Assembly (NCBI RefSeq): GCF_000526195.1
Contig: NZ_JAFP01000001.1
Coordinates: 124,001-188,000, forward strand
Length of the DNA stretch: 64,000 nt
Direction: 5' to 3'
From: Hippea sp. KM1
Lineage (GTDB): Bacteria > Campylobacterota_A > Desulfurellia > Desulfurellales > Hippeaceae
Numbering within the stretch: position 1 is the stretch's first letter; the number at the start of each line of letters is the position of its first letter. Positions 49,910-55,491 of the stretch are shown here, piece by piece. The notes beneath the pieces are model-generated. The model was not told the DNA's origin. It did not search any database and saw only the letters and a program-made list of their open reading frames with translations. Position numbers and translations under genes: made by a program.

Positions 49910-50197
49910 TCAATTTATCCTAACACCTTTTAGGGCTTCCTTTTCTATTGGTCTGTTAAAGTCCCTACTGACAACAACATCCACAGGTTTTCCCAATAAA
50001 TTTTCTAATTTCGCTTCTAATTTAATCCGCTTTTCAAAGAGCTTCTCCCTTTCATCTGGCACAACAAAAATGTCGATATCCCCGCCCTTTTTCTCCTTCA
50101 ATCTGCTTCCAAATATATATACCTCGCACTTGCCAAAAACCTTCTCAGCCAAATCCCTTATGGTTTTAATCTCTTCCTCGCTCAACCTTATCTTCAA
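49910..50197 (-). CDS. mntA: MNT-type nucleotidyltransferase antitoxin (MntA)
   Basis: 95 residues. The minimal nucleotidyltransferase motif is IFGSRLKEKKGGDIDIFV, then PVDVVVSRDF with the third acidic residue. In HepT-MntA pairs, MntA adds AMP to a HepT tyrosine and so silences the RNase (family knowledge). It overlaps hepT by 32 bases. Confidence 0.85.
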   Translation of the reverse strand: MKIRLSEEEIKTIRDLAEKVFGKCEVYIFGSRLKEKKGGDIDIFVVPDEREKLFEKRIKLEAKLENLLGKPVDVVVSRDFNRPIEKEALKGVRIN

Positions 50198-50624
50198 TTT
50201 TCTTGATCACCTCAATTAACTCTGGTGTTTTCTCTATGAGATAGTTTATAGCCTCAATCCTATCTTCAAAAGAATAAGGATATTCGTGTGATAGAAAATT
50301 TCTTACTTTTCTAAACTCATTCCAACTATCTATGTCTATTATACCCTCTTTTTCTATCTCCTTCAAGATATCAAAAAAGGTCTTCTCTTCCACTATATAG
50401 CCCATCTCTTTTAAAAATTCCCTGAAAATCCTGCTGCCTATCAAATCCTGCAACTTCGCAAACCTGAAGGCAAGTGTATCTAACATATCTTTTTCATAGG
50501 AATTTAGGTTTTCAAATCTGTTGATGTCCAATGGATATACATTCTTAAGTCTTCCTAAAACATCCTCCAACCTTTCTATATGAATGCCTGCTTCTTTTAA
50601 ATAAAAATCCAGTCTATCTGACAC
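50166..50624 (-). CDS. hepT: HEPN-family RNase toxin (HepT)
   Basis: 152 residues, all helical. The HEPN catalytic motif R-x4-H is seen as RNFLSH in FRKVRNFLSHEYPYSF, and the adjacent tyrosines are the normal AMPylation targets. With MntA downstream it forms a complete toxin-antitoxin module between the sugar genes and flagellin. Both frames are intact. An ATG-proximal GAGAGC site is weak. Confidence 0.85.
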   Translation of the reverse strand: MSDRLDFYLKEAGIHIERLEDVLGRLKNVYPLDINRFENLNSYEKDMLDTLAFRFAKLQDLIGSRIFREFLKEMGYIVEEKTFFDILKEIEKEGIIDIDSWNEFRKVRNFLSHEYPYSFEDRIEAINYLIEKTPELIEVIKKIEDKVERGRD

Positions 50625-50690: not shown

Positions 50691-50720
50691 AAAAATAAAA
50701 AGCCCCGCAGAAAGCGGGGC
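50691..50720 (-). terminator. Rho-independent terminator of fliC
   Basis: On the minus strand GCCCCGC, loop TTTCT, GCGGGGC, then TTTTTATTTTT, starting 15 bases after the flagellin stop. Confidence 0.9.
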
Positions 50721-50734
50721 GGATTGGGTGATGA

Positions 50735-52519
50735 TTACTGCAGCAGTCTTAGAACATTCTGCTGGACAGCGTTTGCCTGAGCCAGTGCGTAGGTACCGGA
50801 CTGTGCAAGGATCTGGAGCTTGGAGAAGTTTGAGGACTCTTGTGCGAAGTTGACATCCCTGATCGTTGACTCAGCACCGTTGATGTTGATCTGTGTTACG
50901 GAGATGTTCTCAACCGTTGCCTGGATCTGGTTCTGGATTGCACCGAGGCTGGACCTGACTGCGTCTAAGTCTTTAAGAGCAGATTGCGCAATCTTGATTG
51001 CAAGCTCAGCGCCGTTTACCGTGGTGACATTCACATCCTCTAATTTGTGTGTTGGGGCTATGACACCTGCAGCTAAACCTCCAACAGAAGGTTTGTTGCC
51101 AGCTATTGTTATATTATCTGTACTTGTAAGAATTACCCTTCCTCTGTTGGATTCATTGGCAAGATAGTAAATTTCATGATTGGCGTTTGTAGCGTCTAAC
51201 CCAAGGAAATTTAGATGACTTGCCTTTGCCTGGGCGCTTGCAACATGTATGTTTAGATCTTCCCCATCTCTAACGATGGTTTTTAATACACCACCACTAC
51301 TTGCTGTTGCACTAAACCTAATATCATCTGTACTTATACCTGCTGCCTGAAGCTGCGCGTTTAAAGATTGGGCTGCTTGGGCTGCTGATAAATCTTTGTC
51401 GATAACAAGTTTTACGCCATTCATATAGAATGAAAATGCTGCTGCTAAACTTCCACCGTCGGCACCAGTTAAGGTTGTTTCGGCGTTGCTTAAACCTGTG
51501 ATCTGAGCTGCGTTTCCATGTAGCTCTATAGCTATATTTCTTCCGTCAGTAGAAGTTAGGACAAGTTGTCCATTGTTATTGACGCTTGCAACAACTCCGG
51601 TTTCATCTGTATATCTGTTTATAGCGTCTACTAATGCACCATTTGAGTCATTAGCTCCAACATTAACATAGCCTATATTTACACCATTGATCCAGAAATC
51701 ACCAGCATTGATTACTCCTGCTGTAATTGCGTTGTTTCCTGTGACAACATTGGATGCCCTTGCCTCAACTCCACCTGTTTCTAATTGAACGGAGTTTATG
51801 GCTGCAGCCAGTGTTTTAGCAGAAAGCTGCCTTGTTTTATCTATGCCAGCAAGGTCATTTGCAACTGCAACGCCATTAATTGTTAAATCTTCATCTTTTA
51901 ATTCTACAAAGTTTGTATTAGCATTGTATTGTACTGTTGGATTAGAGGTAGCACTTGTTTCCTGTATTTTCTCTGTCCAGTCAGCCTCTAATGTGCCGTT
52001 TGCAACCCAACCAATGGAGTCGGCTGCAGTTCTCTGGGCACCTATAGAGAGTGTCTGGTTCATGTAGGCGCCGATGTGAACGATTTTGTTTGTGAAGGTT
52101 CCATCCAACAGCTTTGTGTCTTTGTAAGATGTTGTCTCGGCGATGTTGTTGACCTCTTGGATGAGTTTGTTGATTTCTGCCTGGAGTGCCTCTCTGGATG
52201 ATGGATCCTCTGTGGCGTTTGCAGCCTGGGCTGCCTTCTGGGAGATTGTCTGCACGATGTCGATGGATTTCTGCAGAGCCATGTCTGCAATCTGGATGAG
52301 TTTAATAGCGTTGTTGCCGTTGTTGATTGCCTGGCCTAAGTTCATAGACTGAAACTTAAGACCGTCTGCGATCGTCATGCCAGCAGCATCGTCTGCCGCT
52401 TTTGTAATCCTCAGACCCGTCGAGAGCCTGTTGAGTGAGAGAGAAAGTTTGTCATTTGTGTTGTTGAGGTTGAATACTGCATACTGAGCCGAAACATTGG
52501 TATTAATCCTGAGTCCCAT
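50735..52519 (-). CDS. fliC: Flagellin
   Basis: 594 residues. The conserved D0/D1 N-terminus (INTNVSAQYAVFNLNNTNDK, LSTGLRITKAADDAAGMTIA, ALQAEINKLIQEVNNIAETT) and C-terminus (LGAIQNQIQATVENISVTQI, LAQSGTYALAQANAVQQNVL) enclose a variable centre of about 330 residues rich in Thr, Ser, Asn and Ala, suited to O-glycosylation. VHIGAYMNQTLSIGAQ resembles epsilonproteobacterial flagellins. The TLR5-binding RxRELxV of enterics is not evident in D1. The sigma-28 promoter, structured leader and terminator make it a single-gene unit. Confidence 0.97.
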   Translation of the reverse strand: MGLRINTNVSAQYAVFNLNNTNDKLSLSLNRLSTGLRITKAADDAAGMTIADGLKFQSMNLGQAINNGNNAIKLIQIADMALQKSIDIVQTISQKAAQAANATEDPSSREALQAEINKLIQEVNNIAETTSYKDTKLLDGTFTNKIVHIGAYMNQTLSIGAQRTAADSIGWVANGTLEADWTEKIQETSATSNPTVQYNANTNFVELKDEDLTINGVAVANDLAGIDKTRQLSAKTLAAAINSVQLETGGVEARASNVVTGNNAITAGVINAGDFWINGVNIGYVNVGANDSNGALVDAINRYTDETGVVASVNNNGQLVLTSTDGRNIAIELHGNAAQITGLSNAETTLTGADGGSLAAAFSFYMNGVKLVIDKDLSAAQAAQSLNAQLQAAGISTDDIRFSATASSGGVLKTIVRDGEDLNIHVASAQAKASHLNFLGLDATNANHEIYYLANESNRGRVILTSTDNITIAGNKPSVGGLAAGVIAPTHKLEDVNVTTVNGAELAIKIAQSALKDLDAVRSSLGAIQNQIQATVENISVTQININGAESTIRDVNFAQESSNFSKLQILAQSGTYALAQANAVQQNVLRLLQ

Positions 52520-52567
52520 TGCTACCTCCTTGCAATTTCTTTAAGGGGTTAAACATAAATTCCCAAA

Positions 52568-52618
52568 CCCTTAAGAGCCTTGCGGCTAAATTTCGCTTAA
52601 GGGGCATCACCTCCTTTT
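52568..52618 (-). promoter_or_regulatory. Structured fliC leader with an early ribosome-binding site
   Basis: The leader transcript has AAAAGGAGGTGAT (52618-52606) followed by an ATG at 52607, then a hairpin: outer stem CCCTTAAG (52603-52596) with CTTAAGGG (52575-52568), and inner AGCC-GCAA-GGCT (52587-52576) with a GNRA-type tetraloop. This lies 50-100 bases before the real fliC start, which has its own CAAGGAGG site. A ribosome standby site, leader peptide or stability element is possible. Confidence 0.55.
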
Positions 52619-52641
52619 CCTCTAAAGTTGCCTCATCTATT

Positions 52642-52668
52642 CAATCGGCGATTGAGGTAAAAACTTTA
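52642..52668 (-). promoter_or_regulatory. Sigma-28 (FliA) promoter of fliC
   Basis: TAAAGTTT (52668-52661), exactly 11 bases, then GCCGATTG (52649-52642). The consensus is TAAAGTTT-N11-GCCGATAA, so this is nearly perfect. Confidence 0.92.
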
Positions 52669-52737: not shown

Positions 52738-55491
52738 ATGTTGGGGGCTAACAGAAAATTACTCAAAGAAAAAGGTATTCTTGATATTATAGAAAACTGC
52801 AAAGGTGATCCAAACATAAATATAAAAGACGGTAGGATGTATTATAAGGATATGGAGATAGATGAAGATATGCCTGTAAAAGAGGACAATATAAAAAGCA
52901 TAGATACGGTTTTTATACACGGTTTTGGTATGGGAAATATTTTGAGGAAATTAAAAAAGAAGTTTCCAAAAACTGTTTTTGTGGTGCTTGAGACAAATCC
53001 TTGCATCATAAAGGAGGCCTTATCTTACAAGGATTTTTCTGATGTTTTAGATAATAAGACCATACCTGTAATATTGAGTCAGGGAAACTTAGAAGATAAC
53101 ATTAAAACCCTGATCTCTCTCCTTGAGAGGAGGATTTATTGGGGAGAGGTCGTTCAGTTTACAACACCGGGATACAGAGAGACTGGTTTTTACGATGTAG
53201 ACAGTATAAAGCTCATATTGGATAAATACTTAATTGCAATTCTTGTAAACAGGGCGACACTTATATCAAGATCGAGAGTAATTTTCGAAAACACGGTTAA
53301 GAATTTGCCTGAAGTTGCAAAGAATGGTGATGTTGGATATTTCTATGACGCATTTAAGGGTAAACCCGCTATTGTTGTTGCAAGCGGACCTTCTCTGTCA
53401 AAGAACATAGAATATCTAAAAAAGGTTAAGGGTAAATCCGTAATCATTGCCGTTGATAGTGTTATATCTGTTCTTAAGAGTATGAACATAGAGCCGGATT
53501 TTGTGTGTGGTGTTGACTATCAGGAGGTAAATCAAATCAAATACACCCCTATATTTAAAGAAAAGGAAAAGTCCGACTATGTATTTATTGCCGCAGATGG
53601 CATCAATTATGTCTTGCCCAAGTTGTTTAAAAAGACATTCGTTGAGTATTCAATGAATAACTTTGTATCTTTGTATAAGAATTTTTTGGGACAAAAAACA
53701 AAAAAGCACTTTTCCTTTAACGCTGTTACCCATCTTGCCGTTCAGTTTGCATATCAGATGGGTTGTAATCCCATAATTTTCGTTGGTCAGGATTGGGCTT
53801 TTTCCGGCGGTGAGGATCATATTTCTGGTGTTGTCTTAGATGGTTTTGCTCATAGCAATGTAATATGGGTGAAGGGTAATTATGAAGATAGGGTGCCAAC
53901 CGATCAGACATTGTATGCTGGCTTAAAAATCGTAGAAGATATAGTGGGAGCAACAAAGAACGAAGGCATAACATACATTAACGCAACTGAGGGTGGAGCC
54001 TATATAAACGGTACAGAGGTTATGAGGTTTAAGGATGTTATGGAGGAATACTTAAAAGAACCGATAGAGAAAGGCTTTATGCTTAAAGAGGTTAAGCCTC
54101 GATACGATGATTTTATAAAAAGAACTCAAGAGATCAGCGATAGGCTTGGTGTGGTGATAAAGAAGGCCACAAAAGCCCTATCGATAAACAATAAGGTGTT
54201 AAAGAAGTGGATAAAAAACAAGAATGTCGATGAGATTCGTGCCGATGTTGATAAGGTAAATAAATTAAACGATGAGATAACATTTGATGAGGTCTTTAGT
54301 TCCACGGCGCAGAATTTCTATTTCAAGGAGTTCTATGAATTTCACAGGGAGGAGATCGACATAGAAGGGCAGGATACAAAGAAGAGAATAGAGCAATCGA
54401 TTAAATACTTTAGCCTGATAAAGGAAAAGACCATTCAGACGAAGAGATTAATCGATGAATTGCTTGAGTTTCTAAAGCTTGAGAAGGCCTATGTCTCAAA
54501 TAGAGATAAATTTTTAAAGGATAAGGATAGGCTTCTCAGGCTTGCCGAATTGTACTTTGATTTTAAGGATTTATACACAGGTATTGAATTTATTGATGAG
54601 GCGCTGAAACTATACCCAGACGATGCAAGGCTGTATTACTGGAGAGCAAAATACTGCACACTGAACAGGTTTATGCACAAGGAGGCGCTAAAGAACTTTG
54701 AAAGGGCTTTAGAGCTTGACCCGAACTTCGAAAAGGCCCTGTTTGATTACGAAGTCGAAAAGAAGATGGTTCAATCACACATGATACTTGCAAAGAGTGC
54801 CGCAGAGAGGAAGGACTACATGTCGGCAAGAAGGCTCATTGAGAGGGCGCTTGATTATGAACCGGAAAACGAAAAGCTAAAGAGATGGAAGGATGTAATA
54901 AATGAGCTTGCAACGGTTACAAAGAACGCCCAGAGGCAGAATTTGCTCCTAAAGCAGCTTGAGCTTGAGGGTGAGGCGTTTGAGAAATACAAAACGGCCA
55001 TTGAGTTTGTCAAAAAGGAGCAGATGGATAAAGCCTTTGACATATTGAAGGAACTATACGACAAATACGGCAACTTTGCCGATATTCCGTTTTTGCTTGG
55101 CAGCATCTATATCGACAAAAAGGAATTTGACAAGGCTGAAAATTACCTAAAAGAGGCCGTTGAGCTCATTCCTTATCAGCCGCTTGTGTATTTAGCTCTG
55201 GGCAAATTATACATAGAAAAAGAGGATTATGTTGCAGCAAAGGAGAATTTGGAGAAGGCTGTAAGCATGAACCCCGACCTAAAGCCCGGGGTTTTGGATA
55301 CATTGGGCAATCTCTATTACGAATTCGGAGAGTATGAAAAGGCTTTTAAGGCGTTTGAGGAGTATTTGCAGTATTCTGACGATAAGATAAAAACATTAAC
55401 AAAGATCGCGCTTTGCTACAAAGAGATGGGCATGATAAACGAGTACAACATGCTTATGGAAAAAATCAAATCGATAACAGGTGCAAATTAG
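52738..55491 (+). CDS. Maf-type flagellin glycosyltransferase fused to TPR repeats
   Basis: 917 residues. Residues about 205-390 are the DUF115/MptE-like Maf core (GKPAIVVASGPSLSKNIEYL, IIAVDSVISVLKSMNIEPDF, IIFVGQDWAFSGGEDH). Maf proteins transfer pseudaminic or legionaminic acid to flagellin (established in Campylobacter and others). A coiled-coil region near 440-600 leads to TPR units (YPDDARLYYWRAKYC, NFERALELDPNFEKALF, PYQPLVYLALGKLYIEKEDY). The TPR tail may hold flagellin or its chaperone. It is divergent from fliC. Its 3' end overlaps serA by 4 bases. Confidence 0.9.
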   Translation: MLGANRKLLKEKGILDIIENCKGDPNINIKDGRMYYKDMEIDEDMPVKEDNIKSIDTVFIHGFGMGNILRKLKKKFPKTVFVVLETNPCIIKEALSYKDFSDVLDNKTIPVILSQGNLEDNIKTLISLLERRIYWGEVVQFTTPGYRETGFYDVDSIKLILDKYLIAILVNRATLISRSRVIFENTVKNLPEVAKNGDVGYFYDAFKGKPAIVVASGPSLSKNIEYLKKVKGKSVIIAVDSVISVLKSMNIEPDFVCGVDYQEVNQIKYTPIFKEKEKSDYVFIAADGINYVLPKLFKKTFVEYSMNNFVSLYKNFLGQKTKKHFSFNAVTHLAVQFAYQMGCNPIIFVGQDWAFSGGEDHISGVVLDGFAHSNVIWVKGNYEDRVPTDQTLYAGLKIVEDIVGATKNEGITYINATEGGAYINGTEVMRFKDVMEEYLKEPIEKGFMLKEVKPRYDDFIKRTQEISDRLGVVIKKATKALSINNKVLKKWIKNKNVDEIRADVDKVNKLNDEITFDEVFSSTAQNFYFKEFYEFHREEIDIEGQDTKKRIEQSIKYFSLIKEKTIQTKRLIDELLEFLKLEKAYVSNRDKFLKDKDRLLRLAELYFDFKDLYTGIEFIDEALKLYPDDARLYYWRAKYCTLNRFMHKEALKNFERALELDPNFEKALFDYEVEKKMVQSHMILAKSAAERKDYMSARRLIERALDYEPENEKLKRWKDVINELATVTKNAQRQNLLLKQLELEGEAFEKYKTAIEFVKKEQMDKAFDILKELYDKYGNFADIPFLLGSIYIDKKEFDKAENYLKEAVELIPYQPLVYLALGKLYIEKEDYVAAKENLEKAVSMNPDLKPGVLDTLGNLYYEFGEYEKAFKAFEEYLQYSDDKIKTLTKIALCYKEMGMINEYNMLMEKIKSITGAN

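Follow-up and report, generated by a model that had tools for sequence, protein, structure and literature searches.

Why does the flagellin message of Hippea sp. KM1 carry its strongest predicted ribosome site far upstream of the codon at which flagellin synthesis starts? The strain is a heat-loving, sulfur-reducing bacterium whose genome is available as one contig of 1,742,311 bases. The question is raised by a stretch of 64,000 nucleotides of this contig (the window, whose numbering is used below unless stated otherwise). Its fliC transcript has a ribosome site stronger than the one at the start codon, an arrangement that is also a trap for gene-start prediction. The fliC gene (50735-52519, minus strand) codes for a protein of 594 amino acids with Flagellin_N and Flagellin_C domains. 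It starts with the ATG at 52519 and accounts for the single Flagellin_N match of the genome. A terminator-like GC-rich hairpin followed by a T run lies 3′ of the fliC stop codon (50702-50720, minus strand; a pattern match only), and the gene is probably transcribed alone. Its divergent neighbor (52738-55491, plus strand) encodes a protein of 917 amino acids that combines TPR repeats and an MptE-like domain and is related to flagellin-modification proteins of the PseD type, below the family cut-off. Downstream of fliC (49910-50624, minus strand) a 95-amino acid nucleotidyltransferase-domain protein overlaps a 152-amino acid partner. Pfam identifies only the nucleotidyltransferase, and the layout of the two genes resembles that of MNT/HEPN pairs.

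The fliC promoter (52642-52668, minus strand) consists of TAAA (52668-52665), a spacer of 15 nt and GCCGATTG (52649-52642), and is of the sigma28 type by its consensus. The mRNA 5′ end is placed near 52635 by prediction from this promoter, not by mapping, which gives a leader of about 116 nt. Directly behind the promoter and about 90 nt 5′ of fliC lies the stretch AAAAGGAGGUGAU. The sequence AAAAGGAGGTGAT lies at 52618-52606 on the minus strand, and its antisense AAAGGAGGTGATCC is present in the 16S gene of the same genome; the 3′ end of that gene and the 12-mer AAAGGAGGTGAT are exactly complementary. We name the surrounding block AAAAGGAGGTGATGCC (52603-52618, minus strand; about 19 nt downstream of the predicted 5′ end) SD1. 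The 12-mer is found three times in the 1.74 Mb genome: in the fliC leader, in an ordinary ribosome site at 951994 and in the 16S complement itself. The second of these lies within a 15-mer, AAAGGAGGTGATGCC, at genome positions 951991-952005 (G000:C1, minus strand; locus L073), directly 5′ of an ATG. It functions as the ribosome site for an uncharacterised protein and resembles the SD1 block with its start codon retained. Closer to fliC are the conserved block 2, ATGTTTAAC (52548-52556, minus strand; 37 nt before the start codon), and SD2, AAGGAGGT (52524-52531, minus strand), the ribosome site that serves fliC. The first-pass annotation of this DNA had reported a near-perfect match to the 16S tail about 90 bases before fliC. 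The match is confirmed as 12 exact nucleotides on the minus strand, at a site conserved in the family, as is the ATG 2 bases past it (52607-52605, 2 nt after GGAGG). The letters are as described there; the promoter at 52668-52642 and the block at 52556-52548 were overlooked.

The same annotation proposed a comparison of leaders in related species, with a lack of conservation as part of what would speak against its idea. Sixteen genomes of the family were used, including that of KM1. A flagellin start was found in 13 of them and all 13 leaders were compared; the three others are incomplete (76-85%) and gave no or only a distant flagellin match. Two sequence blocks proved to be conserved and the remainder not. 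The promoter pattern TAAA-N15-[G/T]CCGA precedes fliC in 13/13 leaders. SD1 reads AAGGRGGTGAT in every one, with GCC following in 12, and the sole free base of its core is A or G, both of which pair with the 16S tail. The pairing energy between SD1 and this tail is near its maximum in all 13 leaders (-18.6 to -19.9 kcal/mol). Mean pairwise identity is 0.92 in the SD1 block, 0.92 in block 2 and 0.72 at the fliC ribosome site. It is 0.45-0.64 in leader segments outside the promoter, SD1, block 2 and SD2, while fourfold sites within the first 90 fliC codons give 0.48. In 12 leaders SD1 follows the predicted 5′ end by 16-26 nt and in the remaining one (L014) by 37 nt, the 5′ ends being predicted throughout, and its distance to the fliC start ranges from 90 to 113 nt; a longer interval varies more by length alone. 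SD1 is slightly more open than the leader mean (0.62 vs 0.54 unpaired at 55 °C), and above that mean in 10 of the 13 leaders. Block 2 has the conserved form NUGUUUAAC, with one-base deviations in L008 and L012, and is found at -34 to -41 from the fliC start in every leader, with AUG in ten and UUG in three. It is not complementary to the 16S region compared and could be a weak upstream start (MFN...).

All three genomes of the sister family (L015, L016, L017) lack the long leader, and a single SD close behind the promoter serves the flagellin start. The long leader seems to have been gained by the Hippea family, unless the sister family has lost it. A pattern scan of genome contigs returned 12 stretches, seven of them Desulfurellales flagellin leaders and five chance matches or ordinary ribosome sites. 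Its by-catch comprised two contigs of Candidatus Harrysmithimonas galli (L047, L048) with a frame for a 27-amino acid hydrophobic peptide ending in KKK, which resembles type I toxin peptides.

The ATG at SD1 opens upstream reading frame 1 (52503-52607, minus strand), whose 34 codons overlap fliC by 17 nt. A leader peptide frame running toward fliC, as the first-pass annotation had it, therefore exists, but it is not kept across the 13 leaders. The frame has two codons in six of them and 11-34 codons in six others, and in L014 the AUG is missing. Spacing was inspected with a simple script in 864 kb of the KM1 genome (the window and 40 further stretches, 860 reading frames). The 13 real ribosome sites with GGRGGTGA found there are all 6-9 nt from their start codon, so that the AUG of SD1, at 2 nt, is unlikely to be used. 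The frame is probably unused. These 864 kb contain no credible long leader with GGRGGTGA other than that of fliC; two other flagged cases most likely correspond to miscalled starts inside coding sequence. Attenuation by a leader peptide was rejected because no upstream frame is conserved in the 13 leaders.

The stable, GNRA-capped hairpin claimed for this leader fared less well. A hairpin with a GCAA loop can be drawn at 52602-52569 (minus strand; 52602-52596 with 52575-52569, 52587-52584 with 52579-52576, loop 52583-52580), but its stability is unexceptional. The 141-nt stretch folds no better than its shuffled versions (z = +0.64), the hairpin stretch alone has z = -1.2 at 37 °C here and a mean of -0.33 over the 13 leaders, and whole leaders average +0.47 at the same temperature. 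The GCAA cap is peculiar to KM1 among the seven loops compared by eye, the other six loops of the genus being CGAU, UAAG, UAAA or UUCA. Inspection by eye allows a similar hairpin across the genus, with few compensatory changes. RNAalifold run on the leader alignment predicted three pairs and zero compensatory changes, and the pairing of the strands surrounding SD1 (a:b) was equalled or bettered in 1092 of 5000 permutations. Searches against known RNA families gave only a tRNA in the window at gathering score (Rfam 15), and a scan of the leader to E 10 returned no credible match, the best one reaching 17.8 bits against a gathering score of 33 bits.

Leaders of the same layout were also found before other genes. 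A sequence-only model of the 13 leaders was searched in 25 genomes of the class and ranks the 13 fliC leaders first (E 1e-22 to 8e-13). Of the many further matches 26 were read individually, mostly chosen because they include the SD1 end and hence not a random sample. Twenty-one of them fall within coding sequences or at their ends, are ordinary ribosome sites or are unrelated, while five are leaders of genes other than fliC with an SD1-like site. Two of the five precede type IV pilin genes (N_methyl domain), one in G005 (AAGGAGGTGAT ... TTGTTTAAC at -37) and one in G004 (AAGGGGGTGAT ... ATGTCTAAC at -36). Two others, both in G010, belong to the same type of secreted protein (AAGGAGGTG, TTGTTTCAC at -64), for which Pfam gave no match, and the last to a secreted-protein gene in G006 (TTGGAGGTGA at -201, ATGTTAAAT at -35); “secreted” denotes here a signal-like N-terminus recognized by eye. 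The three secreted-protein leaders follow a sigma70-like promoter, with SD1 beginning 21-22 nt after the -10 hexamer and lying 118, 125 and 201 nt from the start codon. No promoter was recognized before the two pilin genes, one of which is at a contig end. Block 2 is exact in one of the five leaders, one base off in three and two bases off in one. The model gives these five weak scores (E 0.001 to 0.25), with matches in coding sequences scoring equally well or better, and the case for these leaders therefore rests on their layout and on what the genes encode. Leaders are not separable from other matches by score, since the best-scoring of the 26 (E 3.7e-6) is not a leader. Among the non-fliC leaders the two pilin ones are convincing. 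A motif search for a pilin gene in half of the KM1 genome found none. In G010 the same secreted-protein start stands behind two related leaders (L071, L078) that are identical in their 3′ parts and different close to SD1, as would be expected from a duplication of the gene or from its having entered the assembly twice.

The occurrence of one layout before pilin and secreted-protein genes implies that the leader is not specific to the flagellum. It suggests a device that serves abundant surface proteins rather than flagellar control, and SD1 probably protects or boosts abundant messages rather than sensing flagellum assembly. CsrA and FliW were each detected in 0 of the 25 class genomes (16 of which are at least 90% complete), whereas the positive controls were detected. 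Flagellins are present in two families of the class in which CsrA and FliW were undetected. FlbT was not detected in the KM1 genome, the only one searched for it, with a positive Caulobacter control; a Caulobacter-type control of flagellin mRNA by FlbT was rejected for this reason. The genome encodes RNase J (TIGR00649, 622 bits against a cut-off of 400) and also RNase E/G. The suggestion of the first-pass annotation that the leader sets flagellin translation or message life in response to assembly state is thus retained in one part. Message life is the likeliest reading of what the leader affects, but a response to assembly finds no support, the customary assembly sensors CsrA, FliW and FlbT being undetected and pilin and secreted-protein genes sharing the layout.

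The fliC leader element is real and conserved; its function we infer from sequence. The reading that we favor, though we give it slightly less than an even chance, is that the leader resembles the STAB-SD elements of Bacillus, SD1 being a site that does not initiate and that protects the mRNA. A 30S subunit would dock through its 16S tail at SD1, about 20 nt from the 5′ end of the fliC mRNA. SD1 would be non-initiating because its AUG is too close and no conserved frame follows, so that the subunit would stay there without starting translation. The docked subunit would block decay that depends on the 5′ end, namely 5′-to-3′ digestion by RNase J and perhaps cleavage by 5′-tethered RNase E/G. 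The long-lived mRNA would then yield much flagellin from the separate site SD2. In favor of it are the near-maximal 16S pairing, the place of SD1 close to the predicted 5′ end, its variable distance to the start codon and the lack of a well-placed AUG. Against it, a pure stabiliser has no need of a NUGUUUAAC whose distance to the start codon is fixed, the precedent for protection comes from Bacillus-type decay while the KM1 genome also has RNase E/G, SD1 is just slightly more open than its leader, and the non-fliC leaders score weakly. A broader proposal, possible but rather doubtful in our estimate, takes in both conserved blocks. A module particular to the Hippea family, made of SD1 about 20 nt from the 5′ end and NUGUUUAAC about 37 nt before the start codon, would be common to flagellin, type IV pilin and secreted surface-protein mRNAs. 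It would jointly set their life or ribosome supply, and stand in for CsrA-FliW control, which was not detected in the class.

The main alternative to stabilisation, which we regard as unlikely, keeps the docked subunit and changes its fate: SD1 would capture the 30S subunit near the 5′ end and hand it over to SD2, about 90 nt downstream. The geometry is that of Sinorhizobium meliloti metA, which provides an experimental precedent (PMC9373788). Block 2, fixed at -34 to -41, would suit a hand-over path, and in the minimum-energy fold of the KM1 leader SD2 is paired with the stretch just upstream. Against loading, SD2 is strong by itself (pairing energy of -10.2 to -13.6 kcal/mol over the 13 leaders), its sequestration is not conserved (d:SD2 species-swap test, p 0.65), and the interval from SD1 varies, reaching 201 nt to the start in one of the non-fliC leaders. 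Stabilisation is favored over loading because of this strength, inconsistent sequestration and variable spacing. The leader might also act as a switching RNA, in which CUUAAGGGUU pairs upstream to form the hairpin or else with AACCCCUUAAAG downstream, the choice being made by a ligand, a protein or temperature and setting the access to SD2; we hold this to be improbable. In KM1 the two pairings do share one strand. Species-swap tests of strand pairings were carried out on seven pairs in one run and on 12 pairs at two temperatures in another. Of these only the strand before block 2 stands out, pairing better with the stretch after block 2 of its own species than with swapped ones (p 0.0035 at 37 °C; 20,000 permutations). 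This value is one among 12 strand pairs examined at two temperatures, and at 55 °C the advantage is no longer clear (p 0.11). Species differ in the paired registers, and the alignment fold and the Rfam searches described above speak against a switch as well. The species-specific downstream pairing is a weak lead only.

Translation of a short upstream frame, from the AUG of SD1 or from NUGUUUAAC, could couple to fliC translation or compete with it. The minimal AUG-CCN-stop at SD1 in 6/13 leaders and the weak G-rich site that precedes the AUG or UUG of block 2 would fit such a role, and a mini-ORF ribosome site in E. coli is credited, in the title of a study, with protecting the mRNA for type III secretion against RNase E. 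The lengths, frames and end points of the frames nevertheless vary freely, and one leader has no AUG at SD1 at all. Block 2 is free of synonymous changes in its UUU and AAC codons, and therefore a peptide is not what is kept. This explanation has, in our judgment, about as small a chance as the switching RNA. Still smaller is that of an element acting at the DNA level, be it an operator or a piece of the promoter beyond the start site, whose match to 16S is fortuitous. SD1 is indeed conserved and near the promoter, but the one base in which its core differs still pairs with 16S, the pairing is near-maximal in every fliC leader, and similar sites in relatives follow another type of promoter. 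Least credible of all is control of the CsrA-FliW type, in which one CsrA dimer would bridge the two AAGGAGG sites and FliW would release it upon flagellin export. Flagellin leaders of Bacillus and Campylobacter have two GGA-rich sites, one of them at the SD, and the two AAGGAGG sites of the Hippea leader suggested the same arrangement; the failure to detect csrA or fliW in any of the 25 class genomes largely refutes it.

Protection of the message by SD1, if true, would bear on two questions. It would suggest how a lineage without detectable CsrA and FliW sustains a very high output of flagellin. It would also provide a conserved natural case in a Desulfurellales family, for flagellin and probably for pilin, of a mechanism then wider than Bacillus and its relatives. 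In the open-licence literature no paper with both “Hippea maritima” and “flagellin” was found, and titles and abstract beginnings retrieved for Gram-negative STAB-SD elements or flagellin mRNA describe no such leader. Among known systems, the CsrA/FliW-controlled leaders of B. subtilis hag, C. jejuni flaA and C. difficile fliC likewise carry two purine-rich AAGGAGG sites. They differ in that CsrA and FliW are undetected in the class studied here and that the Hippea leader type is also found before pilin genes. The E. coli mini-ORF site is, going by that title, likewise a ribosome site that protects an mRNA; the two-codon frame found in 6/13 Hippea leaders is not conserved. In S. meliloti metA, initiation at the second AUG requires an SD that lies 74 nt upstream (PMC9373788). 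The likeness lies in an SD beside an AUG that is unused there and probably so in Hippea, with the real start tens of nucleotides downstream. The metA SD is part of a SAM-II riboswitch and the SD-like sequences that follow it are weak, whereas in Hippea SD2 is strong and no riboswitch was matched. Stabilising SD sites that do not initiate are described, in the literature considered, from Bacillus and its relatives (PMC4113751, PMC3997798), the second source making a general statement on SD sites that have no start codon. Among the closest known systems is the STAB-SD of Bacillus thuringiensis cry3A, besides other SD-type 5′ stabilisers of Bacillus mRNAs; it is an SD-like site near the 5′ end of a 129-nt leader with a separate start (PMC4113751). 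There a longer minor transcript is trimmed by RNase J1 to the -129 end, while SD1 of Hippea lies directly behind a sigma28-type promoter. Unlike the cry3A organism, Hippea has RNase E/G beside RNase J and an extra block, NUGUUUAAC, and protection here is predicted from the sequence. The fliC leader and the cry3A element have in common a site near the 5′ end, complementary to the 16S tail and far from a separate start codon, on the message of an abundant product.
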